Assembly (NCBI RefSeq): GCF_030295325.1
Contig: NZ_AP027059.1
Coordinates: 1 to 64,000, forward strand
Length of the DNA stretch: 64,000 bases
Direction: 5' to 3'
DNA from: Haliovirga abyssi
Lineage (GTDB): Bacteria > Fusobacteriota > Fusobacteriia > Fusobacteriales > Haliovirgaceae
Under the pieces are notes generated by a model. It searched no databases. It was not told the origin of the DNA and worked only from the letters and a program-made list of their open reading frames with translations. Each line of letters starts with the position of its first letter. The stretch's first letter is position 1. Below, piece after piece: positions 6,472 through 37,504 of this stretch. A program made the translations under genes and the position numbers.

Positions 6472-8925
6472 ATGGCAAAAGAGACTCAAATTTATATAGA
6501 GGACGAAATAAAAAATTCATACTTGGATTATTCAATGAGCGTAATAGTAAGTAGAGCTCTTCCAGATGTAAGAGATGGATTAAAGCCGGTACATAGAAGA
6601 ATACTTTTTGCAATGAATGAAATGGGAATGTTTCACGAGAAACCTCACAAAAAAAGTGCAAGAATAGTCGGAGAAGTTTTAGGTAAGTATCACCCACATG
6701 GAGATACTGCTGTATATCTTACAATGGTAAGAATGGCACAAGATTTTAACTATAGATATATGTTAATTGATGGGCATGGAAATTTTGGTTCTGTTGATGG
6801 TGATAGTGCGGCAGCAATGAGATATACAGAAGCACGTATGTCAAAAATAACAAGAGAACTGTTATTAGATATAGATAAAAATACTATTGATTATAGAAAA
6901 AACTTTGATGACAGTTTAGATGAACCTATTGTTTTACCAGGAAAACTTCCAAATTTATTATTAAATGGAGCGGCAGGGATAGCTGTTGGAATGGCAACTA
7001 ATATACCACCACATAATCTAGTTGAATTATCAGATGGAATTATTGCTACAATAGATAACAGAGATATAGAAGATGATGAATTAATCAAGATAGTAAAAGG
7101 GCCAGATTTTCCAACAGGTGGAATAATAAATGGAGTTTCTGGAATAATTAGTGCTTATAAAACTGGTCGTGGAAAAGTTAAAGTTCGTGGAAAAGTTAAA
7201 ATAGAGGAGATAAGATCAGGAAAAGAAGCTATAATTATAAATGAACTACCTTACCAAGTAAATAAAGCTAGATTAATAGAAAAAATAGCTAATTTGGTAA
7301 AAGAGAAAAAAATATCTGGAATTACAGATTTAAGAGATGAATCTGATAGAGATGGAATAAGAATAGTAATAGAATTAAAAAAAGGTGAAATTTCAGAACT
7401 AATTTTAAATAAATTATATAAATATACAGAACTACAAAATACCTTTGGAATAATAATGTTAGCACTTGTAAATAATGTTCCTAAAGTATTAACTTTAAAA
7501 CAAATATTAAATCATTATTTAGATCATAGATATGAAGTAGTAGTTAGAAGAACAAAATATGAACTTGAAAAAGCTGAAAAAAGAGCTCATATATTAGAAG
7601 GGTTTAGAAAGGCATTAGATAACATAAGTGAAATTATAAAAATTATAAGAGGTTCAAAAGATGCAGCAACTGCAAAAGAAAGTTTAATAAAAATTTTCGA
7701 ATTTACTGAAATACAAGCAAAATCAATTTTGGATATGAGATTACAAAGATTAACAGGATTAGAAAGAGATAAAATAGAAACAGAATATAAAGAATTGTTA
7801 AAGGTTATAGATGAATTAAAATTCATACTAGGAAATGATTCAAAAGTATTTGAAATTATAAAAGATGAAGTTATAGAATTAAGAGATAAATATGGAGATA
7901 AAAGAAGAACAGAAATAAGAGCAGCAGCAGAAGATATACTTTTAGAAGATTTAATAAAAGATGAAGAAGTAATAGTTATGATGACAAATAAAGGATATAT
8001 AAAAAGAATAGGATTAGATAAATATAAAGCTCAAAATAGAGGTGGAAAAGGTGTATCATCTCACAATGCGGCATCAGAAGATTTTGTGGAAAATATGTAT
8101 TTGACTAAAAATTTAGATAGTTTATTAATTTTTACAAATAAAGGAAGAGCTTTAAGTTTAAAAGTATATGAAATACCAGAAAGTTCTAAAAAAGCAAGAG
8201 GAAAACTAATAAATAATTTAATAAACTTAACAACTAATGAAAAAGTAAAAGCAGTGTTAAAAGTAAGAGAATTTGAAGAAAATAAAAATATATTTTTTGC
8301 AACAAAATCTGGAGTAGTAAAAAAAGTTAGTTTAAATAAATTTAAAAAAATAAGTAAGGCAGGACTAATTGCAATAAATTTAAAAGAAAATGATAATTTG
8401 ATATATGTTGGAGTGGCTAATGGAGATAATGACATATTTTTAGCAACTAAACAAGGGTATTCAATAAGATTTAATGAATCAGAAATAAGAAGTATGGGAA
8501 GAACAGCTACAGGAGTAAAAGGAATAAATTTAAGAAAAAATGATGAGGTAGTTTCTGGACTAGTAATAGAAAATCCAGAAGCAACAGTATTAACAGTAAC
8601 TGAAAATGGAGCTGGAAAAAGAACGAAATTAAAAGGATATAGACTACAATCTAGAGGTGGAAAAGGATTAATAAATATGAAAATAAATCCAAAAACTGGA
8701 GATGTTGTAGAGGTAAAAGGTGTTACAGATAGTGATGAAATAATGTTGATTAGTTCTAATGGTATAGTAATAAGAACAGCAGCAGATACAATATCTACAA
8801 CTGGTCGTTCAACACAAGGTGTAAGAGTTATGAAAGTTGATGAGAATGAAAAAGTTGTATCAGTAATAAAAAGACATAAAGACAAAGAGATAGAATCAGA
8901 TATAGAAAGTGGAGAAGAAGAGTAA
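6472..8925 (+). CDS. gyrA: DNA gyrase subunit A
   Basis: DNA-cleaving subunit of gyrase. It has 817 residues: the breakage-reunion domain with catalytic Tyr118 ([12 protein letters not shown]), a coiled-coil tower, and a C-terminal beta-pinwheel with GyrA-box-like motifs QNRGGKG (near 526) and QSRGGKG. The acidic tail [11 protein letters not shown] is typical. The quinolone-determining region reads [17 protein letters not shown]: Thr at the position of E. coli Ser83, and Leu where Asp87 (Asp/Glu in most bacteria) is expected. The start ATG follows AGAGAGGGG. The gene has its own 5' region with a hairpin and ends in a terminator that overlaps the stop codon. Confidence 0.98.
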
Positions 8926-8942: not shown

Positions 8943-9083
8943 GTGGAAAACAAATTTTATAGTCGTGTTTTCCACAATTGTTAATAAAAAAGCCTATTTT
9001 TTCAAAAAGTTTTCCACTTTTCCTCATAGTTTCCCACAATTATATAATAATTTGAATTTTTTTAAGAAATAGAGTTATACACA
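8941..9083. promoter_or_regulatory. DnaA-box-like cluster downstream of gyrA
   Basis: Five sites of the TTNTNCACA type occur in 143 bases. They are TTTTCCACA on the minus strand at 8942-8950 and on the plus strand at 8968-8976 (the two form an 11-bp inverted repeat), TTTTCCACT at 9010-9018, TTTCCCACA at 9030-9038 and a strict box TTATACACA at 9075-9083. An A/T-only stretch lies between the last two. Together with the box before dnaA, this looks like a second part of the origin or a DnaA titration site. No gene is present here. Confidence 0.55.
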
Positions 9084-9117
9084 TAGGAGATAAATTAAAA
9101 AATTTTATTTTAAGTAA

Positions 9118-9264
9118 GGAACGTTTAAAAAATAATTTTTATATATTTTGTTATAAAAACGCTTGAAACGTTGCATACGTTGGGCGTAGTTTTTTATGTG
9201 GTTTTCATAAAAGAACCTTGAGCCTTTTAAAACAAAACAGGTAAGTTATTTTTAAGCCGTTCCT
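9118..9264 (+). repeat. FR1 repeat, long copy with internal extension
   Basis: Starts GGAACGTTTAAAAAATAA and ends TTATTTTTAAGCCGTTCC, the full FR1 inverted termini. It is 147 bp rather than about 100 because extra sequence lies after the central GAAACGTTGCATA. A fragment like the FR2 left end (AAAGTATAAATTTATT) follows near 9274. Confidence 0.7.
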
Positions 9265-9432
9265 AAGTAGAAAAGTATAAATTTATTTTGAAAAATATGT
9301 AGTATTGTTGAAATATCCTAGATTGAGAAAATTTTCTTTTTATTAAAAACGGTATTTAGGTTACTTATAGAACATTATTTACGGTTTGCGTAGCATAAAT
9401 TTGAAAAAAGTTATAAAATCCGAAAATAACCT

Positions 9433-9461
9433 TTGAATTTTTTTTGATTTTGTAGTATAAT
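9433..9461 (+). promoter_or_regulatory. Putative promoter of the malK operon
   Basis: TATAAT at 9456-9461 with TTGAAT at 9433-9438, spacing 17. The malK ATG is 43 bases downstream of the -10. No gene lies from 8926 to here. Confidence 0.5.
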
Positions 9462-9503
9462 AATTGAAATTGGAAAATACTAAACTAAATGAGAGGTGAA
9501 AAC

Positions 9504-10610
9504 ATGGCAAAAGTAGTTTTAACAGATATGGAAAAAACATATCCAAATGGATTCAAAGCAGTACATGGGCACAATTTAGAAATAAAAGATGGAGAATTTA
9601 TGGTATTTGTAGGGCCATCAGGTTGTGCAAAATCAACAACATTAAGAATGATAGCAGGATTAGAAGAGATAACAGGAGGAACAGTAGCAATAGGAGATAT
9701 AATAGTAAATGAGTTGCCACCAAAAGATAGAGGGATAGCAATGGTGTTTCAAAATTATGCCTTGTATCCACATATGAACGTATATGATAATATGGCATTT
9801 GGGCTAAAATTAGCAAAAACACCAAAAGAAGAGATAGACAAAAGAGTAAAAGATGCAGCAGAAATATTAGGAATAACAGATCTATTAGATAGAAAACCAA
9901 AAGAGATGTCAGGAGGACAAAGACAAAGAGTAGCAGTAGGAAGAGCAATAGTAAGAGATCCAGAGGTATTTTTATTTGATGAACCATTATCAAACTTAGA
10001 TGCTCAATTAAGAGTACATATGAGAGTAGAGATAACAAAATTACATAAGAGATTAGGAACAACAATGATATATGTAACTCATGATCAAGTAGAAGCAATG
10101 ACAATGGGAGATAGAATATGTGTAATGGAGTTAGGAGTAATAAAACAAGTAGATACTCCATTAAATTTATATAATAAACCAGAAAATAAATTTGTAGCAG
10201 GATTTATAGGAAGTCCATCAATGAATATAGTAGAAGCAAAACTAGAAAAAGATGGAGATACAACATATGCGGTAACAGAACATATGAAATTAAGATTACC
10301 AAAAGAAAAAGCAGACAAAGTCCAAAGTCATATAGGAAAAGAAATATGGTTTGGGATAAGACCAGAACATATAGGAAGTCATGAAACACATCCAAACGAA
10401 AAAGATAATTATGTAAATTCAGAAATATATGTAGTAGAACAGATGGGAAATGAAGTATTTGTATATTTCACACCAGGAAAGAATCAATATATAGCAAGAT
10501 TAGGAAGTGAAGGAGTAACAGTAAAATCAGGAGAAAAATATGAAATATGGTTTGATACAAGTAAATGTCATATATTTGACAAAGAGACAGAAGAAAATAT
10601 AAGTTTATAA
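9504..10610 (+). CDS. malK: Carbohydrate ABC transporter ATP-binding protein (MalK/UgpC/MsmX type)
   Basis: Cytoplasmic ATPase dimer that powers sugar import through the MalF/MalG pair encoded next to it. It has 368 residues, the family length: an ABC domain plus the C-terminal OB-fold/regulatory domain (from about 240). Signature [16 protein letters not shown] at 135-150, Walker B VFLFDEP at 155-161, H-loop His193. The Walker A reads GPSGCAKST (37-45), with Ala42 where Gly is expected. ATG at 9504 is preferred over 9489 because GAGAGGTGA lies between them. It is first in the operon, ahead of the permeases, unlike E. coli. Substrate (maltodextrin) is inferred from neighbours. Confidence 0.93.
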
Positions 10611-11893: not shown

Positions 11894-13740
11894 TGGCAAA
11901 CAAAAAATATACTAAAAAACAGTTTATTAGAAGTTTAATAGTAGTACTAACATCTCTTTTAATAGCTGTATTATTTACAGGATGGTATAGTAATTACGCA
12001 AAAAAAACAGTAATAACAAGTGTAACAAAATCATCAGAATTTTTTAGTAAAAAAATAGTGGAAGATATAAATAAAAAATTTGCTAAATCAAAAAGAATAA
12101 TATTTATAAGAGCGAAAAAAATAATAGATCCTAAAAGTTTATTTAAGTATATTCCAGAAGGTAGAAGCGATATAAGTAAATTAAGTGTTGCTTCAATTGC
12201 AATATGGAGCAAAAAAGATGGAAAAATTGTAAATGAGATACATACAATTAGTAGTTTAAATAGAAAAAATTTATATGGATTAAGAAAAGGAGAAACATTA
12301 AATAAAAATAATGTAAAAAACTATTTTGAATCAAAAATAGAAAATAGCTGGATTGAAAATAATTTTGATAAGATACAAGAAAATCAATTTGTAGTTGAAA
12401 ACATAAATGGATTTCTTAAAAATAAAAAAAGAAATAATCTTCATACAGTTAGAAAATTTAATTTAAAAGGAAAAGATTATTTATTAGATATACAATATTC
12501 AAAGAGATCAATTGTTTCAAATAGAATAACAAAGAAAATTCAAACAGAAGTAATAGTTATAATATTTATATATCTTTTATTTTTATTGGTATATTCTTTA
12601 ATAATGGATAGGAATTTATTAATGCATGTACTGGTTCTTTATGTATTGGTTTTTACAACGTATCCATTAACATGGGTAATATCTCTTACGTTTAAAAGCA
12701 GCAATTCAATGGGAGGTACAAATCTAAACCCTATACCTAAAAATGCTACATTAGATAATTATAAAGCAGCATTATTAAATCTAAAAAAAGTAAAAGAGGA
12801 AGGAATCGTATTAGATAAAAATAATAAATTGTTTATAGGACAAGAAGTAATTGTAGATGGAAAAGGAGCAATGATAGAAGCTAAAAATATAAAATCTGTG
12901 TACAATGTATTTGATCCTAATTCAACTAATTTATTAAAAGATGTAAAATTTGAAGTAAAAGAAAAAGATACAAAAGTTACTTATAATGGAAAAGAAAAAA
13001 TTATAAAACAAGATGCTTATTATTTAAGGTTAAATAAAGTATCTGAGTTACCACAAGATATGCAAATATATAATGTAGAATATTATACACATATTAATTT
13101 TTTATTTTTATCAGGAATATTCAATAGTTTGTTTATAGCTATATTAACGGCATTAATAGGAATGATATTGTCATCAGCGGCAGCATATGCTTTTTCTAGA
13201 TTTAGATTTCCAGGAAGAGATGGTTTTATGATGTCATTTCTAGTAACTCAAATGTTTCCTGGAACAATGATGTTGATTCCTTTGTATATAATATTTTCCA
13301 ATTTAGGATTTATAAATACATTTAAAGGATTAATATTTGCATATTCAATAACGGCATTGCCATTTAATATATGGAATTTAAAAGGATTCTTTGATACAGT
13401 ACCAAAAGAATTAGAAGAAGCAGCATTAATAGATGGATGTTCAGCTTCACAAACATTTTATAAAATAGTGTTGCCATTATCACTGCCTGCATTAGCAATT
13501 TCGGCTCTATTCTCATTTATGGGAGCTTGGAATGAATATATAATGGCAGCAACATTTATGAATACAGAATCAAAATATACAATACCAGTAGTAATAAAAA
13601 TGTTAGTAGGTTCAAATAGTGTAAATTGGCCAATGTTTGCCACAATGGCAGTATTAGTATCAATACCAGTAGTAATAGTATTTTTAATGAGTCAAAAATA
13701 TCTTGTAGGAGGATTAACTGCTGGAGGAGTAAAAGGATAA
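11893..13740 (+). CDS. malG: MalG-like permease with a large extracytoplasmic N-terminal domain
   Basis: The last ~220 residues are a clear MalG core: SAAAYAFSRFRFPG, MFPGTMMLIPLYIIF, EAA motif EEAALIDGCSASQTF and the ending GLTAGGVKG, identical in type to E. coli MalG. At 615 residues it is about twice the usual length. A first membrane segment (about 13-31) is followed by a ~180-residue extracytoplasmic region (about 32-212) with a long N-terminal helix and alternating strands, resembling a Cache/PAS-like sensor fold. Then come two membrane segments (about 214-262) and a second extra loop (about 266-390). Long MalG forms exist, I recall, in Thermotoga. Strong RBS GAGGAGGTG overlaps the malF end. 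Confidence 0.88.
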   Translation: MANKKYTKKQFIRSLIVVLTSLLIAVLFTGWYSNYAKKTVITSVTKSSEFFSKKIVEDINKKFAKSKRIIFIRAKKIIDPKSLFKYIPEGRSDISKLSVASIAIWSKKDGKIVNEIHTISSLNRKNLYGLRKGETLNKNNVKNYFESKIENSWIENNFDKIQENQFVVENINGFLKNKKRNNLHTVRKFNLKGKDYLLDIQYSKRSIVSNRITKKIQTEVIVIIFIYLLFLLVYSLIMDRNLLMHVLVLYVLVFTTYPLTWVISLTFKSSNSMGGTNLNPIPKNATLDNYKAALLNLKKVKEEGIVLDKNNKLFIGQEVIVDGKGAMIEAKNIKSVYNVFDPNSTNLLKDVKFEVKEKDTKVTYNGKEKIIKQDAYYLRLNKVSELPQDMQIYNVEYYTHINFLFLSGIFNSLFIAILTALIGMILSSAAAYAFSRFRFPGRDGFMMSFLVTQMFPGTMMLIPLYIIFSNLGFINTFKGLIFAYSITALPFNIWNLKGFFDTVPKELEEAALIDGCSASQTFYKIVLPLSLPALAISALFSFMGAWNEYIMAATFMNTESKYTIPVVIKMLVGSNSVNWPMFATMAVLVSIPVVIVFLMSQKYLVGGLTAGGVKG

Positions 13741-13838
13741 TTTTAGAATAGAGATATATACAGAAATAAAAAAATTGATTTTTAAAATTTTATAAGGTAG
13801 ACTTATAAATAAGAACACAAATAAAAAGGAGGAAAAAA

Positions 13839-15053
13839 ATGAAAAAAAGAGTATTAGTTATTTTAGCACTATTTACATTAGTATTTTCTAGTGTAGTATC
13901 TGCAAAAACAGTAAAGTTATGGTATGGATGGACAGGACAAGAAAAAGAAGCAATGTTAGGAATACTTGCAAAATATGAACAAGTATCAGGAAACAAAGTA
14001 GATGCATTAATGGTACCATTTGATGCATTGCAAGGAAAATTTCAAACAATGGCTCCACAAGGTCAAGGACCAGATGTAATAGTTGGACCTGCTGATTGGA
14101 TAGGAACATTTAAAATTCAAAATTTATTAGCACCTATTGATGGATTTGCATCAGAAAGTACTTTAAAAGGATTTATACCAACAGTATTAGGGGCATGTAA
14201 ATATGAAAATAAATTATATGGATTACCAGAATCATATAAAGTAGTAGCTTTAATTTATAATAAAGATTTAATACCAAATCCTCCAAAAACAACAGAGGAA
14301 ATGATAAAAATAGGAAAAGAATTAACTAACGAAGATGAATCACAATATGGACTAGTTTATGATAAAGGAAATTACTATTATCATATGGGATGGATTGGTG
14401 GATTTGGAGGAAAAATATTGGATAAAAATAATAATCCAACATTTGATTCTAAAGCTCAAATAGAAGCAGCTAAATTTGTAGCTTCTTTATCAGAAGATCC
14501 TCAGAAGATAATGCCAGAAGAAGTAGATTATAATGTAATGATGACACTATTTAATGATGGGCTTGCAGGAATGATAATAAATGGACCTTGGGCAATAGGA
14601 GATTTAGTAGAATCAGGAGTAAATTTTGGAGTAACAAGAATACCAATGGTTAATCAAACAGGGCTTTGGCCAGCACCAGCATTGGGACCAGAAGTAATGA
14701 TGATGTCAGCTTATTCTAAAGACAAAAAAAATGGATATGATTTAATAAAATTTTTAACATCAGCAGATTCACAAGCTGAAATGTCTAAAGTTGGACATTT
14801 ACCGTCAAGATCAGAAGTTTATGAGTATAGAACTGTAAAAAATAGCAGTGTATATCAATACATAAAAGGATTTAAATCTCAAGCAGAAGTAGGAACTCCA
14901 ATGCCGACAGCACCAGAAATGAATGCTGCAGTTTGGGCAAATGGAGCTACAATGTTATCACAAGTATTATCAGGAGATGCAACAGCAGAAGAAGCAGCAA
15001 AAGATGTACAAGAAAAAGCTATGGAATCAGTTAAAGAATTAAGACAAAAATAA
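13839..15053 (+). CDS. malE: Maltose/maltodextrin-binding protein (MalE type)
   Basis: Periplasmic solute-binding protein (family 1 extracellular solute-binding) that delivers maltodextrins to MalFGK. 404 residues. A Sec signal peptide ends near VVSA-K (residue 23); there is no lipobox cysteine, so the protein should be soluble in a periplasm, which supports a diderm cell. Typical patterns: LWYGWTGQEKEAM, GPDVIVGPADWIGTF, LYGLPESYKVVALIYNKDLI, GMIINGPWAIGDL and the C-terminal MPTAPEMNAAVWANGA. A 98-base gap separates it from malG. Strong RBS AAAGGAGG. A terminator follows at 15081. It may also present ligand to the chemoreceptor encoded next. Confidence 0.95.
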   Translation: MKKRVLVILALFTLVFSSVVSAKTVKLWYGWTGQEKEAMLGILAKYEQVSGNKVDALMVPFDALQGKFQTMAPQGQGPDVIVGPADWIGTFKIQNLLAPIDGFASESTLKGFIPTVLGACKYENKLYGLPESYKVVALIYNKDLIPNPPKTTEEMIKIGKELTNEDESQYGLVYDKGNYYYHMGWIGGFGGKILDKNNNPTFDSKAQIEAAKFVASLSEDPQKIMPEEVDYNVMMTLFNDGLAGMIINGPWAIGDLVESGVNFGVTRIPMVNQTGLWPAPALGPEVMMMSAYSKDKKNGYDLIKFLTSADSQAEMSKVGHLPSRSEVYEYRTVKNSSVYQYIKGFKSQAEVGTPMPTAPEMNAAVWANGATMLSQVLSGDATAEEAAKDVQEKAMESVKELRQK

Positions 15054-26864: not shown

Positions 26865-26928
26865 AAAATAAAGAATAAAAGTTCAAAAGTTTTGAGAAAA
26901 CTTGATAAATTTTGGAGGTGAACGTAAA

Positions 26929-27237
26929 GTGCAAGATTGTTCTGAGGAATATTTTTGGATATTTAAAGAAATTAAATTGTCAAAACTTAAATTAGTTATA
27001 TACGTAGAAGAGGTTGAAATTGAATTAACAAAATTAGAGTATCTTTTAATGGAGTTTTTTATAAAAAATCCTGGAAGAGTTTTCTATAGAGGTCAGATTA
27101 TAGAAAGGGTTTGGGGTGATAATTATATAGGTGAAGACAGAGTGGTTGATTCTTGTTTAAAACGATTGAAGAAAAAAGAAGAAAAATTGAAAGAGCATTT
27201 TAAAAGCGTTAGAGGAATAGGTTATATTTTTGAGTGA
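26929..27237 (+). CDS. Stand-alone winged-helix regulator (OmpR/PhoB C-terminal type)
   Basis: A 102-residue protein that is only the effector half of a response regulator. ELTKLEYLLMEFFIKNPGRV, then IIERVWGDNYIGEDRVVDSCLKRLKKK and the final VRGIGYIFE match the Trans_reg_C winged helix, including the recognition helix and wing. There is no receiver domain with a phospho-acceptor Asp. I chose GTG at 26929 because GGAGGTG lies at 26914-26920; an in-frame TTG at 26902 is upstream of that site. It ends 101 bases before the subtilisin-like gene, so it may regulate the peptide cluster. That link is inference. Confidence 0.75.
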   Translation: MQDCSEEYFWIFKEIKLSKLKLVIYVEEVEIELTKLEYLLMEFFIKNPGRVFYRGQIIERVWGDNYIGEDRVVDSCLKRLKKKEEKLKEHFKSVRGIGYIFE

Positions 27238-27338: not shown

Positions 27339-28007
27339 ATGAAGATAGCTATTATAGATAGTGGGGAACCAGAAAAAAGCAAATTAAATATAATAAAATC
27401 AATAAACGTGACTGAAAGTGTTCAAAAGGATGAAAATGGACATAGTACAGCAATTTATAAAATATTAGAAAGATACTTAAATGAAGAAGATGAGATTATT
27501 AATATAAAAATCTTAAATAAAGATTTAAAAGGAAGTAGTTTTGAATTGTTAAAGGCTTTAAATTTATTGAAAAATGAAAAAGTAGACATTATAGGGCTAA
27601 GCTTAGGAACGACTACTTATAAACATGTATATGGGATGCATAAAGCTATAAATTATTTAATAAAACAAAATATTGTAGTCGTTGCAGCCAAAAATAATTC
27701 GGGAAAAATATCTTTTCCAGCAGAATTTGACAAAGTTATAGGAGTCGGGAATTCTATGGTAGATGTAAATGAAAAAAAATGTTTTATAGATTATTTTAAT
27801 ACAAATATATATTTAAATATAAATGAAGAATTAGATATAGAAAATAAAAAAATAGAGTTAATAGGGAATAGTTATTTGGTGCCTCATATAGTAGGGTTGA
27901 CATCTAAAATATTAAAAGAAAACAGTATAAAAGATTTAGAAGAACTATTGTATATTTTAGAAACGGAAAAAATAGAGGAATTATCTATAGAAAATGAAAT
28001 TTTATAA
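27339..28007 (+). CDS. Small cytoplasmic subtilisin-like serine protease (S8)
   Basis: 222 residues, shorter than typical subtilases (about 275 or more), with no signal or propeptide. The triad is in order: Asp7 in AIIDSG, His35 in GHSTAI, Ser178 in GNSYLVPHIVG (the usual GTSMAxPHVAG). The oxyanion Asn lies in VVVAAKNN (about 119). It should therefore act in the cytoplasm. With the 71-residue peptide gene and an ABC exporter lacking a peptidase domain in the same cluster, the natural reading is leader-peptide removal or processing of that peptide. The substrate is not proven. It ends 19 bases before the next gene, within one operon. Confidence 0.85.
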   Translation: MKIAIIDSGEPEKSKLNIIKSINVTESVQKDENGHSTAIYKILERYLNEEDEIINIKILNKDLKGSSFELLKALNLLKNEKVDIIGLSLGTTTYKHVYGMHKAINYLIKQNIVVVAAKNNSGKISFPAEFDKVIGVGNSMVDVNEKKCFIDYFNTNIYLNINEELDIENKKIELIGNSYLVPHIVGLTSKILKENSIKDLEELLYILETEKIEELSIENEIL

Positions 28008-28026
28008 AAAAATAAAGGAGGAAAAG

Positions 28027-29076
28027 ATGAAATTATCGTTATATCCATTAAATAACATTGCCAAACAGATAATTAATACTAAAGAATATTTAGATTATGA
28101 ACTGAAATATTTAATTTTAGATGAAAATGAAGAATTTGTAGGAGAAGTAGAAACAGGTAAAGAGATAAAGAATGTAATAATGAAAAGCGATATAATTTTA
28201 TTTACAGATGTAGATAATAAAGAAAGAGAAGATAATATAATTAAAATAATGTTAGAAGCAAATAAGCAAAATAAAGATATAATTTTATTAGAACTTCCAA
28301 CTAGCGAAAAAATAAAAACTTTAATAAAGGATAATAATATAGATGTTTTAACTTGTTTTGAAGGTAAAAAAGATATAGTAAAGTATATTGGAGAATATTT
28401 GAATTTTGAAGAAAATTTTCGAAAAAGAGGATATGTAGGAAAAGGAGAAAAAATTAAAAAAATAGGTTTTTTTGAAATATCAGAAAAGCAAGAAAGTTTA
28501 AAAATTTTACTAGAATTAAATGAAAAATTAAAAGAACATTATAATATAGGTAATATAGTTAATGAAAAAATAGGCTTTTTATATGATTTTAAACAATTAA
28601 AAAATATATATGAAAATTATAATCTTAATTGGCAGTATGTAGAAGCAATGTTTAGAGAATTTGAGAAAGAAAAAAAAGAGTTAATATTTATAGAAGAAAA
28701 ATTAAGTTTTCCTATTTATGACAATGATATTCATGATTTTATGAAAAAAAATTCTAAATTATTAGGGTATAGATTAGATGAAGCTGTATTAATAATAGAT
28801 GAATTAAATGAGAAATTTATAAATAAATTATCAAATATGTTTAGGATATATTATGGTTTAGAAGAAATTTTAGCGTGTATAATAGAAAAAAGTTTTTATT
28901 ATGAAAATAAAAAGAGCATAGACAATATTACTGCAAAATATAATATAAAAAATGTAATTTTTAAAGATGAATTAGAAAAATTTGAAAAAATATTGTTATT
29001 AGAAAAATTAGAAGAAAGATTGGAAAATAAATATAAAAAAATGAGTGATAGATATTATGAATTTAAAAATGCTTAA
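28027..29076 (+). CDS. Paralogue A of the cluster's Rossmann/P-loop family, P-loop lost
   Basis: 349 residues, function unknown. The N-terminus (LSLYPLNNIAKQIINTKEYLDYELKYLI) aligns with the starts of the three genes that follow: x-YP-N–K-T-GxIRFRELLDF-I. At the point where the two P-loop paralogues read GTxSCxGKFTT this one has KKIGFFEISEKQESLK, so nucleotide binding there is doubtful. The C-terminal half is helical and Lys/Glu-rich. ATG at 28027 is chosen by AAAGGAGG at 28015-28021; the upstream ATG at 27994 overlaps the protease gene. Possibly a non-catalytic partner of the next protein. Confidence 0.72.
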   Translation: MKLSLYPLNNIAKQIINTKEYLDYELKYLILDENEEFVGEVETGKEIKNVIMKSDIILFTDVDNKEREDNIIKIMLEANKQNKDIILLELPTSEKIKTLIKDNNIDVLTCFEGKKDIVKYIGEYLNFEENFRKRGYVGKGEKIKKIGFFEISEKQESLKILLELNEKLKEHYNIGNIVNEKIGFLYDFKQLKNIYENYNLNWQYVEAMFREFEKEKKELIFIEEKLSFPIYDNDIHDFMKKNSKLLGYRLDEAVLIIDELNEKFINKLSNMFRIYYGLEEILACIIEKSFYYENKKSIDNITAKYNIKNVIFKDELEKFEKILLLEKLEERLENKYKKMSDRYYEFKNA

Positions 29077-29108: not shown

Positions 29109-30164
29109 ATGAAGCAAGCTGTACTATATCCATTTGATAAAATAACAATGGGGATTATAAGATTTCGAGAGCTATTGGATTTTAAAATTAATTGTGTTGT
29201 AGATTTTACAAAGTATGATGAGTGTGATGCTGTAAAATTAGCAATAGGGGAAAAATCAGATATAAAAATAACTAAAGACATAAAAAAAGGATTAAAAGAT
29301 TCCGAAATATTAATATTAAATGATGCAGGAGCTCCTGTTCAGGTTCCAGCAGCTATTAAATTTTATGAAGAAAATAGATTGCAGGAAAAATGGAAAGATT
29401 TAGTAAAAACAGCACATGAAAAAGGGATGAAAATCTTATCAACTCATACTATTTTAGATGTAGGGTTAAAAAAATGGTTAGAAGAAGAGGAAATAAATGT
29501 TGAAATTGGAAAACAAATAACAAATGAAGAAGCAAAAAATAGAGTAGAGAAAAATGAAAATTATACATTTAAGAATAAATTAAAAAAAATAGGGATTTAT
29601 GGTACAAATAGTTGTGTTGGTAAATTTACAACTCAAATGGAATTATTAAGAAGTTTAAGTAAAAAAAGTAAAACAAAAGCAATTATAACAGAGCCTACGG
29701 CATTTTTATTTAATCAACCACAATTTGTAAATATACAATCGGATGAACTTTTGGCAGGAGAATATATGGGGGCAATGTTAAAAGAAATGGAACAAGATGA
29801 TGTAGAATATGTTATAAATTCTGGGCAATCGGGGCTTAGTTTCATACTAAATAGATCAGCTGGTTGGATTAATTATAATATTATGAGATTGACTAGCTTT
29901 AATCCAGATAAGGTTATTATTGTTTGTGGATTAGATGATGATAAAGATGTAAGAGATGTTATTGATTTTTTAGAGATTACATTAGGAATTTCCAAACCAA
30001 TAGCAATTATGATAGCAGATAAAAAAGAAAATAAGGGAGTCTTTGAAAGAATAGAGAAAGAAAAATTGGAACAAAGGAAAAAGGAACTAAGAGAAAAATT
30101 TGGAGTTAAAAATGTAGAAATAATAAAAGATATAGAAAAAATAATTCCGGAAATATTAAATTAA
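29109..30164 (+). CDS. P-loop maturation protein B1 (DUF1611-like)
   Basis: 351 residues. The N-terminal Rossmann-like region (1-155) includes ILILNDAGAPV and ILSTHTILD. The P-loop domain has GTNSCVGKFTTQ (165-176, Lys172). It continues with IITEPTAFLF and NSGQSGLSF and a terminal RKKELREKFGVKNVEII. The P-loop GTxSxxGKxTT with its upstream Rossmann part recalls the DUF1611 family. I also recall a TIGRFAM family (TIGR04066) of clostridial 'peptide maturation system' proteins that could be the same, unverified. Close paralogue of 31031-32086 (shared GIRFRELL, ITEPTAFLF, FNPDKVIIV). Probably acts on the small peptide encoded at 32132; the chemistry is unknown. Confidence 0.72.
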   Translation: MKQAVLYPFDKITMGIIRFRELLDFKINCVVDFTKYDECDAVKLAIGEKSDIKITKDIKKGLKDSEILILNDAGAPVQVPAAIKFYEENRLQEKWKDLVKTAHEKGMKILSTHTILDVGLKKWLEEEEINVEIGKQITNEEAKNRVEKNENYTFKNKLKKIGIYGTNSCVGKFTTQMELLRSLSKKSKTKAIITEPTAFLFNQPQFVNIQSDELLAGEYMGAMLKEMEQDDVEYVINSGQSGLSFILNRSAGWINYNIMRLTSFNPDKVIIVCGLDDDKDVRDVIDFLEITLGISKPIAIMIADKKENKGVFERIEKEKLEQRKKELREKFGVKNVEIIKDIEKIIPEILN

Positions 30165-30176
30165 TAGGAGGTAAAA

Positions 30177-30998
30177 TTGAAAGATATAATATTATATCCA
30201 AATAATGATAAAAGTAAATTTTTATTAAAACATAAAGAAATTTTCAATTATAAAATAGCAGGTATGTTTTCTTCAAAACAAGAGTTAGAAGAAAATTTGA
30301 ATAAAGGAGATAGTATATTTATAACTGGTGAAGATAAAAATTTTAATGAGTTTAAAGAGATTATAAAATTAGGAAATGAAGCAAATAAAAATATTATATT
30401 TAATTATAATATTTTTGACAAACAAACAAAAGAATATATATTAGATAATAAATATGAAGTTTTTGCAAATTATGAAACAGAATCAGAAATAATGAAAATG
30501 TTATCCAAACAAACAAAAAAACCTTTAAAAAAAACAATAAAAAAAACAATGTTATTGTGTATAGATGATGTTGAAGACAAATTAGATGTAGAGCTAAGAT
30601 ATTTAAAAAAAATAGGTTTTAAATCAGAAGAGTATGAAGTTGTTACAGATGATAAAAGGGGAAGATTGTTTGGATTTAAAGAAATTTATAGCGGTTTGAG
30701 CGAATATACTGTTTATGATTATACCAAAAATATTATAGAAGAAGCAGAAAAAAGTAAATCTAAAAACTTATTTCTTGCATATACAAATGATTTTTTAGAT
30801 TTTGAAGATTATTATAAAATGTTGAAAAATATGTCGCTTTTATACTCTTTTATGCCAGAAGAATTAATAATAGCAACTAAAACAAAAAATGAAAAAATAG
30901 ATATGTTAGTTAAGTTTATAAATATATATACTAATTTAAACTCAGTGAAAATATTTTTTTATGATAAAGGAGAAGAAAAAATAGAGATATTAAATTAA
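30177..30998 (+). CDS. Paralogue C of the cluster's family, short, P-loop lost
   Basis: 273 residues. It begins KDIILYPNNDKSKFLLKHKE, the same N-terminal pattern as its neighbours, then IFITGEDKN and IIFNYNIFDK. In place of the P-loop it has KKTMLLCIDDVEDKLD. The second half (LFLAYTNDFLDFEDYYKML, EELIIATKTKN) resembles paralogue A more than B. Start TTG at 30177 behind AGGAGGT at 30167-30173; no ATG is near. 12 bases after B1 and 32 bases before B2: the order A-B1-C-B2 suggests two pairs of one degenerate and one intact subunit. Function unknown. Confidence 0.7.
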   Translation: MKDIILYPNNDKSKFLLKHKEIFNYKIAGMFSSKQELEENLNKGDSIFITGEDKNFNEFKEIIKLGNEANKNIIFNYNIFDKQTKEYILDNKYEVFANYETESEIMKMLSKQTKKPLKKTIKKTMLLCIDDVEDKLDVELRYLKKIGFKSEEYEVVTDDKRGRLFGFKEIYSGLSEYTVYDYTKNIIEEAEKSKSKNLFLAYTNDFLDFEDYYKMLKNMSLLYSFMPEELIIATKTKNEKIDMLVKFINIYTNLNSVKIFFYDKGEEKIEILN

Positions 30999-31030: not shown

Positions 31031-32086
31031 ATGGAAAAAGTATCTATATATCCAAATAATAAAGTAACGCAAGGCTTAATAAGATTTAGAGAATTACTTA
31101 ATATAGAAATAAAAAGTGTTATAGATTTTGTTTTTGATGTAGGAAAAGATGCTCAAGAGATATTGGATGGAGAAAAATCGGGAATAATGATAATGAATGA
31201 AGTAGATGAAGCGTTAGAAGGAGTAGATACATTATTATTAAATGAAGAGGGAACTCCTTTAGCTCATTTTCAGGATTTTTATTTTGAAAATGAATTGGAC
31301 AAAAAGTGGAGGTTAGTAGTAGAAACTGCTTTTAATAAAGGGAAAAAAATAATAAGTAGTCATAATATATATAGTAAAAAAACATTAGATTGGTTAAGTG
31401 AAAAAAAAATAAAAATTGATTTTCCAGAGCCTATAGAAAAAGAAAATATAGAAAAAAAATATTTTGAAAATTTGAAAAATGATTATAAAACTAAAAATAT
31501 GACAAGAATTGGAATTTATGGAACTAGAAGTTGTATTGGAAAATTTACAACTCAGCAAATGTTATTTAAGGAATTGAGAAAAAAAAGAAAAGTTAAAACT
31601 ATCATAACAGAGCCTACAGCTTTTTTATTTAAAGATACATATCCTTTATATAGCACAATACCATTGAGTCAATATGAAAATACAGCATATTTAAGAAAAT
31701 TAGTAGAAGAAGAAGACAAAAATGAGACAGAATATTTTATATTTTCGGATCAAGGAAGTGTGGTATTAGATTTTGGATTAGGGTGGTATATGACAAAGTT
31801 ATCATATTTAAAAGGGTTTCATCCAGATAAAGTTATTATAATAGCAGATTATAGAGATGATGAGGTATTGGAAAAAATGATAACTTTTTTCAAAGTTTTT
31901 TCCAATATAGATAAACCAATGGCAGTTTTGATTCCAGATAGAGTAGAAAAAGAATATGGAATTTATGAAAAGAAAACTGAAGAAGAGATGAAACAAAGAA
32001 AAAAAGAGATAAAAGAAAAATTCAATATTTCAACGGTAGAGATTATTAGAGACATAGATAAAGTTGCTCAGACTATTTTAAATTAA
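31031..32086 (+). CDS. P-loop maturation protein B2 (DUF1611-like)
   Basis: 351 residues, equal in length to B1 and collinear with it: VSIYPNNKVTQGLIRFRELL at the start, LLLNEEGTPLAHF, IISSHNIYSKK, P-loop GTRSCIGKFTTQQ (164-176, Lys171), IITEPTAFLF, FHPDKVIIIADYRDD, and the ending EIKEKFNISTVEIIRDIDK. B1 and B2 clearly arose by duplication but differ in the region after the P-loop (FSDQGSVVLDFGLG against NSGQSGLSFILN), perhaps reflecting different substrate sites. It directly precedes the peptide gene, 45 bases away. The left arm of the inverted repeat begins 5 bases after its stop codon. Confidence 0.73.
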   Translation: MEKVSIYPNNKVTQGLIRFRELLNIEIKSVIDFVFDVGKDAQEILDGEKSGIMIMNEVDEALEGVDTLLLNEEGTPLAHFQDFYFENELDKKWRLVVETAFNKGKKIISSHNIYSKKTLDWLSEKKIKIDFPEPIEKENIEKKYFENLKNDYKTKNMTRIGIYGTRSCIGKFTTQQMLFKELRKKRKVKTIITEPTAFLFKDTYPLYSTIPLSQYENTAYLRKLVEEEDKNETEYFIFSDQGSVVLDFGLGWYMTKLSYLKGFHPDKVIIIADYRDDEVLEKMITFFKVFSNIDKPMAVLIPDRVEKEYGIYEKKTEEEMKQRKKEIKEKFNISTVEIIRDIDKVAQTILN

Positions 32087-32091
32087 ATTTT

Positions 32092-32414
32092 GGTCCAGAT
32101 AGATAAAAATAAAATATGGAGGTAATTATTAATGAAATTGAAAAAAGTAACAGAAGAAATGTTTTTAGAAGAAGAATTTGATTTAGAAGGATATAATTAT
32201 GGAGTAGATGGGGACGATGGAATAGACGGAGATGGAGAAACAGATTCAGGATCAACTTCAACAGGAATAGATGGAGATGGAGAAACAGATTCAGGAATAA
32301 TTTCAATAGGAATAGATGGAGACGATGGAATTGATGGAGATCAATAATAGAGTTTTATAGAGAAAATGGTTTTAATAAGAAAGTAATTTTTTAAAAGTTC
32401 AATCTATCTGGACC
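32092..32414. repeat. Perfect 13-bp inverted repeat bracketing the peptide gene
   Basis: GGTCCAGATAGAT at 32092-32104 and its exact inverse ATCTATCTGGACC at 32402-32414 enclose the 71-codon gene and nothing else. The arms are unusually G+C-rich for this region. They could be ends of a small mobile or exchangeable cassette, recombination sites, or a long-range mRNA stem. Confidence 0.7.
32132..32347 (+). CDS. Asp/Gly-rich repetitive small peptide, candidate RiPP precursor
   Basis: 71 residues with no Cys, Pro, Ala, Arg, His or Trp, but 15 Asp, 15 Gly and 8 Glu. Residues 1-20 look like a leader (MKLKKVTEEMFLEEEFDLEG). Residues 24-71 are repeats: GVDGDD, GIDGDGETDSG-STST, GIDGDGETDSG-IISI, GIDGDD, GIDGDQ. 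The 15-residue unit repeats at DNA level (32228-32251 and 32273-32296 identical, period 45). RBS GGAGGT precedes the ATG. Thr/Ser alternating with Asp/Glu recalls graspetide cores, but no ATP-grasp ligase is encoded here. Calcium binding by the DGDGET-type runs is another option. Placed between the maturation genes and the exporter. Confidence 0.7.
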   Translation: MKLKKVTEEMFLEEEFDLEGYNYGVDGDDGIDGDGETDSGSTSTGIDGDGETDSGIISIGIDGDDGIDGDQ

Positions 32415-32430
32415 TTAAATTAAATAAATT

Positions 32431-32469
32431 GTTTAAAAAGAAGTCGAATTTTTTGACTTCTTTTTGAAC
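32431..32469 (+). terminator. Terminator between peptide gene and exporter
   Basis: A 15-bp stem (32431-32445 with 32455-32469, one G·U pair) with a 9-base loop and U-rich 3' arm. It probably lets the peptide be expressed at a different level from the export genes. Confidence 0.75.
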
Positions 32470-32537
32470 TGTTTTAGAATAAAAAATCTGTTAGTTTATA
32501 AAAAAATTAAGAAAAGAATGATGAGGTGCGGTCTGAT

Positions 32538-34289
32538 ATGAATTATATAACGACAGTGAAAGAAATATTTAAATTTATGAGGTATTTAAAGCCATTTTAT
32601 AAATTTCAATTTTCAATAATGTTTGTTTTGCTAATTTCGACAATATTGGGGTTGATAAATCCATTAGTATATAAAATGGTGGTAGATGATTTTTTTATAG
32701 GTAAAAATATAGAAATACTTTATTTTGCTATTGCAATACAGATAATAGTATTTATATTTACTAAAATACTGTCAATTTCAAAAGAATATTTATCGGCATA
32801 TATGGGAAATTTTATATCAATGACAATGAGAAAAAATGCATTTGATAAAATAATGAAAGCAGAAGCAAGTGAAATGAATAAAATAAATATAGGAGAGATT
32901 TTTGTTACTTTTGATAATGATATTTTAGCGATAGAAAATGCAATAACAGGAACAATTATTAATTTAATCCTTACATTATTTAATTTCATAACCAATACAC
33001 TTGTTATGTTTTTATTGAGTTGGAAATATGGGATAGTTGTATTTTTAGTAATACCATTCCAATTAATTAATAATAATATATGGATAAAACATGTAATGGA
33101 AAAAAATAAAGCAATAAGAAAAAGTGTATCTGAAATGTTTGAATTTGTAAATGAGGCATTTTCGAATATGAAATATTTAAAGTTACTTACAAAAGAAAAT
33201 TTTGCTAGAAGGGTTTTTTTTAAGAGAAATAGTAATATGGTGATTAAGATATTTGATTCGCTAAAAATAAGCTGGATAACAGGGACGATTAGTGAAGTGA
33301 TAGGACTTGGGGACTCTATATTCTTGTTGATTGTCGGTGGCGGTTTGATATATAAAGGTGAGATAACGTTAGGAACATATATGGCATTAATGTCATATTC
33401 GGGAACTGCAAAAGGAAGCTTTATGAGCTTATTAAATTTCAACATAAATATGGCTCCCGTGATGATTTCGATTGAGAGATTGGAAAAGTTATTACAATTA
33501 TCTCAGGATAATCTTAAGGGAGAAAAGCCGAAAGAATTTAGCGGAGATATAGAATTAAAGAATTTGGATTTTTATTATGAAGAAAATAATTATATACTAA
33601 AAGAATTTGAGTTAAAGATAAAAAGAGGAGAAAAATTAGCATTAATAGGTGAGAGTGGGAGTGGAAAATCTACAATAATAAATTTGATAATGGGTTTATA
33701 TAATCCAATTAATGGAGAAATTAGAGTTAATGGATATGAGTTGCGAGAATTAGATAAAAGATATTTTAGAAAAAAAATAGGAATTGTAAGTCAGGATAGT
33801 TTCTTTTTTAGTGATAATATACGAAATAATTTATTATTAGGTGATAAAGCTAAAGATGAAGAGATAATGAGAGTGTGCAAAATTTGTCAGATAGATAAAT
33901 TTATAAATGATTCTCCAAACGGGTTGGAAACTTTATTGGAATTTGGAGGGACAAATCTTTCTGGTGGGCAAAGGCAAAGATTGTCTATTGCGAGAATGCT
34001 TTTAAGGCAGCCTGAAATAATAATATTGGATGAAGCTACATCAGCGCTTGATAATATAACGGAAGCTTGTATTTTGAAATCTTTGGAGGAAGAATTAAAA
34101 ACAAAAACAGTTATAACAATAGCTCATAGATTGTCGACGATAGAGAGTTCTGATAGAATAATCGTATTAAAAGATGGAGTTATAGTGGAAGAGGGAACGC
34201 ATGAAATATTATTAGAAAAAAGAGGGGATTATTATAATTTGCAAAAACTAAGATCGGAGGATAAAGCTAATGATGAAAACTCCGCATAA
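32538..34289 (+). CDS. ABC exporter, fused membrane and ATPase domains
   Basis: 583 residues: a six-helix type-1 exporter membrane domain (about 1-320) followed by the ATPase with Walker A GESGSGKST (about 371), signature NLSGGQRQRLSIARMLL (about 474) and Walker B IIILDEATSALD. There is no N-terminal C39 peptidase, so cleavage must be done elsewhere, in line with the subtilisin-like gene upstream. ATG at 32538 is used with GAGGTG at 32523-32528; a GTG at 32526 overlaps that site. It overlaps the HlyD-type gene by 20 bases, so export genes are coupled. Probable cargo: the matured peptide from 32132. Confidence 0.9.
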   Translation: MNYITTVKEIFKFMRYLKPFYKFQFSIMFVLLISTILGLINPLVYKMVVDDFFIGKNIEILYFAIAIQIIVFIFTKILSISKEYLSAYMGNFISMTMRKNAFDKIMKAEASEMNKINIGEIFVTFDNDILAIENAITGTIINLILTLFNFITNTLVMFLLSWKYGIVVFLVIPFQLINNNIWIKHVMEKNKAIRKSVSEMFEFVNEAFSNMKYLKLLTKENFARRVFFKRNSNMVIKIFDSLKISWITGTISEVIGLGDSIFLLIVGGGLIYKGEITLGTYMALMSYSGTAKGSFMSLLNFNINMAPVMISIERLEKLLQLSQDNLKGEKPKEFSGDIELKNLDFYYEENNYILKEFELKIKRGEKLALIGESGSGKSTIINLIMGLYNPINGEIRVNGYELRELDKRYFRKKIGIVSQDSFFFSDNIRNNLLLGDKAKDEEIMRVCKICQIDKFINDSPNGLETLLEFGGTNLSGGQRQRLSIARMLLRQPEIIILDEATSALDNITEACILKSLEEELKTKTVITIAHRLSTIESSDRIIVLKDGVIVEEGTHEILLEKRGDYYNLQKLRSEDKANDENSA

Positions 34290-35331
34290 GATTATGAAGT
34301 TAATAAAAAGTACAGTTGTGTTGTTTTTGGTGGTAATAATAGCTACTTTATTTTTATTTCAAAAAACTGAATATGTAGAAGGGAATGGAATTGTTATTGC
34401 GGATAGATATAATGTTTATTCTCCTGCTTCTGGTGAGATAAAAAGGATAGAAAAGGATTTTGGAGATATAGTAAAAAAGGGAGAAACGGTTATTGAAATT
34501 GATCCGAAAGAGACAGAAAATAAATATATAGAAAATAAAATCGCTATGGATAATTTATTTACAGAATTAAAAATAAAGGAAATGGATGAAAATCAATTAG
34601 ATTTAGAACAAAAAAGTTATGAAAATAATTTAGAATTATTAGAAATGGATTATATAAATTTGGAAGATGAGTATAAAAATTCTGAATTTTTATATAAAAA
34701 AGGAGAAAAATCAGAATATGAACTAAAGAAAAGTAGATATTTACTTAAAAAAAAGAAATTAGAAATTAGTGATTATAAAATTAAAAATAATATAAAAATT
34801 AAAAAAAATTTAATAAAAAAAGAAAAAAGAGATCTAAAAAATCAAATTAATTATTATGAAAATAAGGGAAAAGATTTAAAGGAAGAAATAAAAAAATGTA
34901 TAGTGAAATCAGAATATGAAGGTGTGACTATAATAACAAAAGATTTAAAAGAATTAATGGGCTCAACAGTAAATAAAGGAGAATTACTTTTTACATTAGC
35001 TGATTTAAAAAATCTTAAAATGATAGTTACTTTGCAAGAAAATGCAATTGGAAAAGTAAAAGATGGACAAAAAGTAATTATAATGTTAGATGCGATACCT
35101 TATGAAAAATTTACAACGATTGAAGGCGAGGTAATAAAGTTATATCCGCAGGCAAAAGATGGAATGACTTATAATAAAGTGGAAATTATAATAAAAGGAT
35201 TTACGAATAAATTAAAAAAAGACAAACTAAAAGAAATAAATTTAAAAAATGGATTAAAAGGAAAAGCGAAAATAATTGTAAAAGAGAAAAAAATAATTGC
35301 AAAATATTTGTGGGATAAATTGTTTGAATAG
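34270..35331 (+). CDS. HlyD-family periplasmic adaptor of the exporter
   Basis: 353 residues. A cytoplasmic start and one membrane helix (about 15-33) are followed by a half-lipoyl motif (YSPASGEIKRIEKDFGDIVKKGETVIEIDP), a long Lys/Glu-rich helical hairpin (about 75-205), the second lipoyl half (VKSEYEGVTIITKDLKELMGSTVNKGELLFTLADL) and a beta-barrel region. This is the membrane-fusion plan of type I secretion. It overlaps the ABC gene and precedes a coiled-coil gene by 8 bases. It should link the inner-membrane ABC protein to the TolC-like protein at 36218. Confidence 0.88.
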   Translation: MMKTPHKIMKLIKSTVVLFLVVIIATLFLFQKTEYVEGNGIVIADRYNVYSPASGEIKRIEKDFGDIVKKGETVIEIDPKETENKYIENKIAMDNLFTELKIKEMDENQLDLEQKSYENNLELLEMDYINLEDEYKNSEFLYKKGEKSEYELKKSRYLLKKKKLEISDYKIKNNIKIKKNLIKKEKRDLKNQINYYENKGKDLKEEIKKCIVKSEYEGVTIITKDLKELMGSTVNKGELLFTLADLKNLKMIVTLQENAIGKVKDGQKVIIMLDAIPYEKFTTIEGEVIKLYPQAKDGMTYNKVEIIIKGFTNKLKKDKLKEINLKNGLKGKAKIIVKEKKIIAKYLWDKLFE

Positions 35332-35339
35332 GAGCTGGA

Positions 35340-36221
35340 ATGAAAAAAATAGTAATAATTTTAGTGATTATAATACAGAGTACAATATATTCAGGAACGT
35401 TAGAAATTCTAAAAAAAGAGTATAATGTTATAAATAAAGAGATAAAAGGATATTTGGAAAATAAGGAATTGGGGTATTCTGAAATAGAATTATCAAAATT
35501 ATATAATAGTTTGTTTTTAAAAGAAATTGATATTGAGGAAGAAAAGAAAAATATAAAAAAAGAATACTTAGATTACAATAATCAAATTAAAATAATAACG
35601 AAGAGCTTAAAGTTTTATAGTAGAAAAATAAGAGAATATATAACCAATTTAAAATTGATGAAGGATAATTTAGAAAACACTAAAAAATCAGATATAGAGG
35701 AGTTAGAATATACAATAGCGTATAGTAATGGCGAAATAAAAAAACTTGAAAAAAGAAAAGAATATATTGAATATATGTTGAAAGAATCTGAGTATAATAG
35801 TGGAATAAAATCTATTAAAAGAGAAGATTATATAAATAAAAAATATGAGTTGTTTGATAAAATATTAAAAAAGGAATTGTTTTTAATAAAATTAGAAGAA
35901 AGCGGTAAACAAAAACAAGATTTAAAGGAAGAAGAAATAGAGATTAATAAAATGAAATATAAAGAGGAATTAGAAAAATTAAAAAAAGAAAAACTTGGAA
36001 AAAAGAAAGATTTATATATCTTAAAAATTGATGTTGAGATTTTAAAACGAAATTTAATATTAAAAAATAAAGAGGTGGCAGTATTAAAAGATAAAGTGGA
36101 AAAAGGGGTTTCTGGATATAAAAAATATTTAGATAAAGAACAAGAGGTGACTGAATTGGAGATAAAGAAGATAGAAATGGAAGGAAATATAAAATATCTT
36201 GAAATGGAGCTTGAAGAATGA
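35340..36221 (+). CDS. Exported coiled-coil protein of the secretion operon
   Basis: 293 residues, not recognised as a family. A short signal peptide (KKIVIILVIIIQSTIYSG) is followed by almost pure charged helix, rich in Lys and Glu, with runs such as KSDIEELEYTIAYSNGEIKKLEKRKEYIEYML and KEELEKLKKEKLGKKKDLYILKIDVEILKRNL. It lacks beta-strand segments or the Ala/Gly pattern of TolC. It overlaps the TolC-like gene by four bases (ATGA). Likely a periplasmic accessory of the channel, perhaps a degenerate TolC/adaptor hairpin. The function is not assigned. Confidence 0.75.
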   Translation: MKKIVIILVIIIQSTIYSGTLEILKKEYNVINKEIKGYLENKELGYSEIELSKLYNSLFLKEIDIEEEKKNIKKEYLDYNNQIKIITKSLKFYSRKIREYITNLKLMKDNLENTKKSDIEELEYTIAYSNGEIKKLEKRKEYIEYMLKESEYNSGIKSIKREDYINKKYELFDKILKKELFLIKLEESGKQKQDLKEEEIEINKMKYKEELEKLKKEKLGKKKDLYILKIDVEILKRNLILKNKEVAVLKDKVEKGVSGYKKYLDKEQEVTELEIKKIEMEGNIKYLEMELEE

Positions 36222-37504
36222 AACAAAATTTTATAAAGGTAATAATATTAATGATTTTGTTTCAAACAAATTTATTTGCCGTAGAAAAAATAAATCTTGA
36301 AGGCGTAATAAAAAGTTTTATTGAAAAAAGTAGTTATAGAGAAAAAGAAAAGATAGAAATAAAGAAGTTAGATATAGAAAAACAGGGAAACGTTGCAGAA
36401 GAATGGCGAAAAATAAGTTTTAATATAAATCCGATTTATAATAGTTATAAAAATAAAGATACGAATAAATATTTTGGAAATACAACTTTAAATTTTGGAT
36501 ATAAAATGTTTTATTTGAACTTTAATTATGATAATTCTACGGATAAGCTGAAAAGAACAATCTATAAAATAGGATTAAGTGAAAGTTTGGATGATGTTAT
36601 ATATAGCGAGCAAAAATATAAAAAAAAATTATTAAAGTTAAAAGAAAAGGTTACAATGAATAGGTTGAGTTCTGAAAAAATAACAGAAATAAAAAGTATT
36701 ATAGAACTTTATGCAGATATAAAAAATATTGAATCAGAAATAGATATAAAGAGAAAAACTTTAAAAAATAGGAATAAAGAATTTGAAAATTTAAAGGAAA
36801 AATATAAGCAAAATGAAGCAGTGAAAATAGATGTAGATTATATGAGTATAAAAATAAAAGAGATAAAAAATAATATAGTTTATTTAGAAGAGTCATTTGA
36901 AAATAATAGTAAAAAACTTCTTGAAAAAGTAGGTATTAAAAGTCGAAAAAAGATAGTATTTGAGGATATATCTGATGTAAATATAGATAAAATAGGTGTA
37001 AATGAATTAGAAATAACAAGTAAAGGGTTAGAAATAAATTCAAAAGAGGAAGAGATTAAATATAGTGTAATAAGAAGTTGTCCAGAAGTAAAGTTAGATG
37101 TAAATTATGATATAGAAAATAAAATATGGATGGCGGGAGTGGTATTTACAGGCAATGTATTAGAATCGAAGACAGATATTAAAACTGAAAAAGAAGAATT
37201 AAAAAAGCTAAAAATAGAAAAGAAAGAAATAGAAGCTAAAAGAAATAGAACGGAACAACAATTGGAGATAGAATATCAAAATTTATTAAATAAAAAAAAG
37301 ATATTGAAGGATAAAAGAGATAACTTTGGAAAGAGATATCTAATTTCAAAGAGTGTATACAAAAAAGGGTATATGAGTCTTATTAATTACATAAAATCTC
37401 AAGAAGACTATGAAAAAGCAGAAATGGAGTATAAAAAAGCAAAGAATGAGTTGAATGCTTTTAAATATAAAATAAAATTTGGTAAAAAAACATTTTATAT
37501 TTAA
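36218..37504 (+). CDS. TolC-like outer-membrane channel of the secretion operon
   Basis: 428 residues. Signal peptide to about residue 21 (LFQTNLFA). Two pseudo-repeats, each with a beta part (FNINPIYNSYKNKDT … YFGNTTLNFGYK; CPEVKLDVNYDIENKIWMAGVVF) and long helices (EQQLEIEYQNLLNKKKILKDKRDNF … GYMSLINYIKSQEDYEKAEMEYKKAKNELNAFKYK). This matches the outer-membrane efflux protein family, including the C-terminal helix pattern. It completes ABC + HlyD + TolC, so the cluster encodes a dedicated route from cytoplasm to outside, as expected in a diderm cell. Confidence 0.85.
   Translation: MKQNFIKVIILMILFQTNLFAVEKINLEGVIKSFIEKSSYREKEKIEIKKLDIEKQGNVAEEWRKISFNINPIYNSYKNKDTNKYFGNTTLNFGYKMFYLNFNYDNSTDKLKRTIYKIGLSESLDDVIYSEQKYKKKLLKLKEKVTMNRLSSEKITEIKSIIELYADIKNIESEIDIKRKTLKNRNKEFENLKEKYKQNEAVKIDVDYMSIKIKEIKNNIVYLEESFENNSKKLLEKVGIKSRKKIVFEDISDVNIDKIGVNELEITSKGLEINSKEEEIKYSVIRSCPEVKLDVNYDIENKIWMAGVVFTGNVLESKTDIKTEKEELKKLKIEKKEIEAKRNRTEQQLEIEYQNLLNKKKILKDKRDNFGKRYLISKSVYKKGYMSLINYIKSQEDYEKAEMEYKKAKNELNAFKYKIKFGKKTFYI

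Follow-up and report, generated by a model that had tools for sequence, protein, structure and literature searches.

The 64,000-nucleotide stretch of Haliovirga abyssi DNA analyzed here (further referred to as the window) carries, at the end of an operon, a short ORF (positions 32132–32347, + strand) encoding a cysteine-free, Asp/Gly-rich peptide, which raises the questions of whether this is a real gene and what kind of product it may give. The sequence bore out the composition reported in the earlier note, i.e., 71 residues with 15 Asp, 15 Gly, 8 Glu and no Cys; the net charge of the peptide is −20 and it contains nine DG dipeptides. It can be divided into a putative N-terminal leader of approximately 22 residues (MKLKKVTEEMFLEEEFDLEGYN), including the LEGY motif, and an Asp/Gly/Glu core (approximately residues 23–71), in which the repeats follow the order A-B-B'-A. 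The element GIDGDGETDSG, previously described as part of a unit repeated exactly at the DNA level, is indeed present twice in identical form in the protein, but its DNA copies are not exact: the 33-nt core of the repeat has a single mismatch (GAC/GAT), and the 45-nt unit is identical at 40 of 45 positions (89%), with the remaining differences all located within the STST/IISI insert. A second repeat, G(V/I)DGDDGIDGD, was overlooked earlier; it is found at both ends of the core (29 of 33 nt identical).

Such a composition exceeds chance, this being the sole short ORF within the 64-kb window with a summed Asp, Gly and Glu content above 40% or with four DG pairs. Its frame has a codon score of +0.76 bits per codon, the scores of the two remaining forward frames being −1.5 and −1.0, and its ATG is preceded by GGAGG. 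The strong ribosome binding site, the in-frame codon usage and the last position in the operon before a terminator show that the 71-aa ORF is a real gene. In 26 related loci (those longer than 8 kb) no Asp/Gly/Glu-rich small ORF was found, and no homolog of the peptide core was identified in any locus examined. The supposition that homologous loci of relatives would lack such a peptide is half true, as the related loci do hold peptides in the same position, but with cysteines.

The operon (all genes on the + strand) is headed by a gene for a possible regulator, an OmpR-type winged-helix DNA-binding domain protein devoid of a receiver domain (26902–27237; PF00486, 2.9e-19). It is followed by a gene for a cytoplasmic subtilisin-like (S8) protease (27339–28007), a predicted leader peptidase, in which alignment to subtilisin BL indicated the presence of Asp7, His35 and Ser178; this protein is similar to QhpE (NF049966, 4e-25), with a score of 88.5 bits that does not reach the model cut-off of 165. 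The next four genes encode related proteins, here named B0–B3. B1 (29109–30164; P-loop GTNSCVGKFT) and B3 (31031–32086; P-loop GTRSCIGKFT) share 40% identity and match DUF1611 (PF07755, 2.3e-7 and 1.6e-6, respectively), in both cases above the Pfam cut-off. B0 (27994–29076) and the shortened B2 (30177–30998) are divergent DUF1611-like proteins that have lost the P-loop and were recognized by hhalign (probability of 96.8%, against the B1/B3 profile, and 95.6%, respectively). The B0 frame begins 14 nt before the end of the S8 gene, but its true start is likely the ATG at 28027. The genes from S8 through B0, B1, B2 and B3 to the peptide gene lie in one direction with gaps from −14 to +45 nt, and the series ends with a terminator-like hairpin (32431–32469, + strand; 18 pairs followed by a T-rich run).

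Downstream, on the same strand, there are genes for an ABC exporter that lacks a C39 peptidase domain (32526–34289), an HlyD-type membrane fusion protein (34270–35331; PF13437, PF16576), a coiled-coil protein whose sequence begins with a signal-like N-terminus (35340–36221) and a TolC-like outer-membrane efflux protein (36218–37504; PF02321, 4.7e-10). The window locus encodes no radical SAM, and no acyl-carrier protein (ACP) was recognized in it. None of B0–B3 matched TIGR04066 ("peptide maturation system protein") at E ≤ 1, and the link of these proteins to that family therefore runs via their homologs.

Apart from the window, B-family proteins are encoded in one further place in the genome, namely locus L009. 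Its S8 subtilase and ABC exporter are 40% and 47% identical, respectively, to those of the window, and its DUF1611 pair forms one 728-aa two-domain protein, with the N-terminal half 43% identical to B3 and the C-terminal half matching TIGR04066 (2.2e-30, below the cut-off), for which reason we refer to the whole as a TIGR04066-type peptide system. L009 also encodes a SPASM radical SAM protein of the Clo7bot/TIGR04463 type, the only SPASM protein detected genome-wide, approximately 0.7 Mb from the window locus if the replicon is circular (2.0 Mb in contig coordinates). Adjoining it are two precursor genes for short Cys/His peptides (L009:6097–6276 and 6634–6771, − strand), which are tandem duplicates with identical leaders and different Cys/His/Gly cores. 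A full-length OmpR-type regulator is encoded upstream of this locus (L009:11689–12387). To our knowledge, a RiPP locus like L009 has not been described.

The two loci share cis-elements. The 14-nt block ATTAAATTTTGGTC, located just 5' of the window peptide gene (32082–32095, + strand), has three exact copies in 2.73 Mb, compared with 0.17 expected, and each of the three peptide genes has one of them a short way upstream; the two sites with one mismatch lie inside long ORFs and are not followed by a peptide gene. Each peptide gene is also bracketed by a long-range inverted repeat, one arm of which continues the block, with the partner arm placed downstream of the stop codon. In the window these arms are GGTCCAGATAGAT (32092–32104, + strand) and ATCTATCTGGACC (32402–32414, + strand), and in L009 (5971–5982, 6295–6306, 6507–6518 and 6790–6801) the pairs are GGTCAGGGTATA/TATACCCTGACC and GGTCAGGGTATA/TATATCTTGACC. 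The arms differ between the loci with complementarity kept, although, as the L009 genes are tandem duplicates, only two cases are independent. An inverted repeat around a gene might also be regarded as invertible DNA, but this covariation and the two G-U pairs in GGTCAGGGTATA/TATATCTTGACC lead us to favour pairing at the RNA level. The window segment folds better than 100 of 100 shuffled sequences (z = −3.4), to which the terminator hairpin contributes in part. The arms together with the 14-nt block are possibly an RNA element isolating or stabilizing the precursor message, and such bracketing hints at a means of setting the precursor level inside one operon.

The pattern [hydrophobic]-[E/N]-[A/G]-Y is present in all three peptides of this genome and in seven of 12 canonical precursors, compared with 14 of 1704 background ORFs, bearing in mind that it was picked after the peptides had been seen. 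Similarity of the whole leader to the L009 leaders was also considered as proof of kinship and was dismissed as not significant (222–228 of 2000 shuffles were equally good).

The B3 model (pLDDT 88) has its best structural matches among DUF1611 structures (2obn and 2g0t; Foldseek E-value of 1e-12 for 2obn) and the D-glutamate N-acetyltransferase DgcN (7xrj), with which it shares the fold and the P-loop domain at an identity of only about 14–17%. The substrate of DgcN is a free amino acid and DgcN is not known as a peptide maturase. A scan of the genome contigs collection with the single B3 protein gave no match, and a search with an alignment retrieved only NRPS-type and aroA-linked loci. Searches of viral contigs, plasmids and Rfam gave no match. 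Among 98 genomes sampled from the phylum, B1/B3-like proteins are clear only in this one (elsewhere there was one marginal partial match), which suggests horizontal gain. B3 homologs in L015 and L016 match TIGR04066 at 1.5e-8 and 6.8e-12, below the cut-off. It is also worth noting that B3-like DUF1611 proteins (33–40% identical) adjoin an MFS exporter and NRPS-like genes in L016, L017 and L018 (near 9001–10060), whose hosts are Anaerosporobacter, Vallitaleaceae and Halonatronum and which make up an NRPS-linked branch of the family. In Paenibacillus fonticola (L015:9001–11309 and 12951–14327), tandem B3-like genes lie by genes for an EPSP-synthase-like protein and a MATE-like exporter, and similar tandem pairs occur in four more genomes of the same order.

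Taking into account the real gene, the operon, the cis-elements common with L009, the predicted fold of B3 and the S8/TIGR04066 fusions found elsewhere (see below), we consider the 71-aa peptide to be probably (at roughly 77%) a RiPP precursor from a form of the TIGR04066 and subtilase system that does without both Cys and a radical SAM. The precursor would be made from the bracketed mRNA segment, and the DUF1611-fold proteins B0–B3, two with intact and two with degenerate P-loops, would bind or modify it, perhaps as two mixed pairs. The QhpE-like cytoplasmic protease would take off the leader, as QhpE does on QhpC, and the product would presumably exit through the ABC-HlyD-TolC exporter. Since the window locus has no radical SAM, no recognized acyl-carrier protein and no Cys in its peptide, its chemistry must differ from that of the TIGR04066/CcpM system. 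Our best guess, a weak one and much less probable than the precursor role itself, is that the DUF1611 proteins acylate the cleaved acidic core, e.g., at the N-terminus that the protease sets free; it was prompted by the N-acetyltransferase among the fold matches of B3, the ACP of the sister systems and the fusion of protease and DUF1611 domains there. In more general terms, and equally tentatively, the DUF1611-fold (TIGR04066-like) proteins might themselves be peptide-modifying enzymes that need no radical SAM partner and whose substrate is an acidic repeat core devoid of Cys; they could, e.g., be peptide acyltransferases operating together with the leader protease ("cut and cap"). If true, this would be a new RiPP class and would give a function to TIGR04066. 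Proteins of that family accompany many radical-SAM RiPP clusters, and the window locus, with its multiplied TIGR04066-like copies, protease and Cys-free peptide and no radical SAM, offers a direct test of their role.

Other explanations of the same genes have to be weighed against this. The peptide might be modified in trans by the SPASM radical SAM of L009 (e.g., by epimerization or by C-C or C-O bonds), with the DUF1611 proteins as accessories; a single regulon is suggested by the cis-element and the leader motif common to both loci, and a second SPASM enzyme was not detected in the genome. We regard this as unlikely, as the window peptide offers no Cys for thioethers and the gene of the enzyme lies far from the window locus, next to Cys/His peptides of its own. 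The locus could also be a decaying paralog of L009, the product of which is no longer made. The lost P-loops of B0 and B2, the regulator without a receiver domain and the absent radical SAM would agree with decay, to which we nevertheless give little credence, because all frames are open, the S8 triad, the strong ribosome binding site and the B1/B3 motifs are present, and the arms and the 14-nt block are intact.

Two further readings concern the peptide itself. Its DGDGETD resembles the DGDGxxD of thrombospondin type 3 repeats, so that an unmodified, S8-cut, acidic calcium-binding peptide, exported by the type I route and folding only with calcium, can be envisaged; calcium binding was also raised in the earlier note. 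The downstream ABC-HlyD-TolC set and the predicted disorder of the unmodified peptide (pLDDT 54.5, in a model without calcium) are in line with it, but neither an EF-hand nor an RTX nonapeptide (GGxGxDxUx) pattern was seen by eye, Pfam gave no match for the peptide and four DUF1611-like proteins would be left unexplained, which makes this reading distinctly unlikely. As for the earlier note, its proposal of a precursor is upheld by the S8/DUF1611 operon, the paralogous RiPP locus L009, which shares a cis-element found nowhere else in the genome, and the downstream exporter genes. The multicore graspetide layout that it suggested draws on the repeated core with Ser/Thr adjoining acidic residues; ester or amide bonds would then link Asp/Glu side chains with Ser/Thr. 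This reading is highly improbable, since no ATP-grasp protein was matched among the ten locus proteins scanned and the neighboring genes belong to another RiPP system.

The preferred reading, a precursor of a TIGR04066-type system, can be set against the known ones. A cytoplasmic subtilase is shared with the quinohemoprotein amine dehydrogenase system QhpC/QhpE/QhpF, in which QhpE cuts a 28-residue leader off QhpC, with ABC export as the next step (PMC7876137); there, unlike at the window locus, the substrate carries Cys-Asp/Glu thioethers made by a radical SAM enzyme, and the window S8 stays under the QhpE cut-off. Both S8 and TIGR04066-like domains are present, as one polypeptide, in five loci of Clostridia and Paenibacillus (L071, L072 and L093–L095), also with ABC exporters. 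Unlike the window locus, most of them have a radical SAM gene (in L093 none was detected by similarity) as well as an ACP-like ORF, and the probable precursors of L072 and L095 are of about 30 aa and end with CC or CCx. Several such peptides per locus (L072:5150–5525 and L095:9899–10096) lie before or beside the fusion genes.

In published clusters, TIGR04066 occurs with CcpM (TIGR04068), TIGR04069, a subtilase and an ABC exporter, e.g., in Roseburia (PMC4573289) and in the SacP23 cluster of Paenibacillus polymyxa, where there is also a short precursor (PMC10731318). The same gene set was present in most of the 20 regions fetched around TIGR04066 matches, and in the canonical loci a short precursor rich in Cys goes together with CcpM, ACP, S8 and ABC. 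The window locus shares with these clusters a subtilase beside DUF1611-fold proteins, which may be of the TIGR04066 type, an ABC exporter and a short precursor whose leader has [V/L]E[A/G]Y, whereas it lacks the radical SAM maturase and the Cys-rich core. For TIGR04069 (ACP-like) there was no match in this genome, in a search that matched no control genome either. The window locus also differs in having four DUF1611-like proteins, a smaller subtilase and HlyD/TolC export of the Gram-negative type. We found no paper with a tested function for TIGR04066 proteins; the authors of the SacP23 study proposed that they give immunity (PMC10731318). Considering the acyltransferase-like fold and the fusion with a protease, maturation seems to fit better than immunity.
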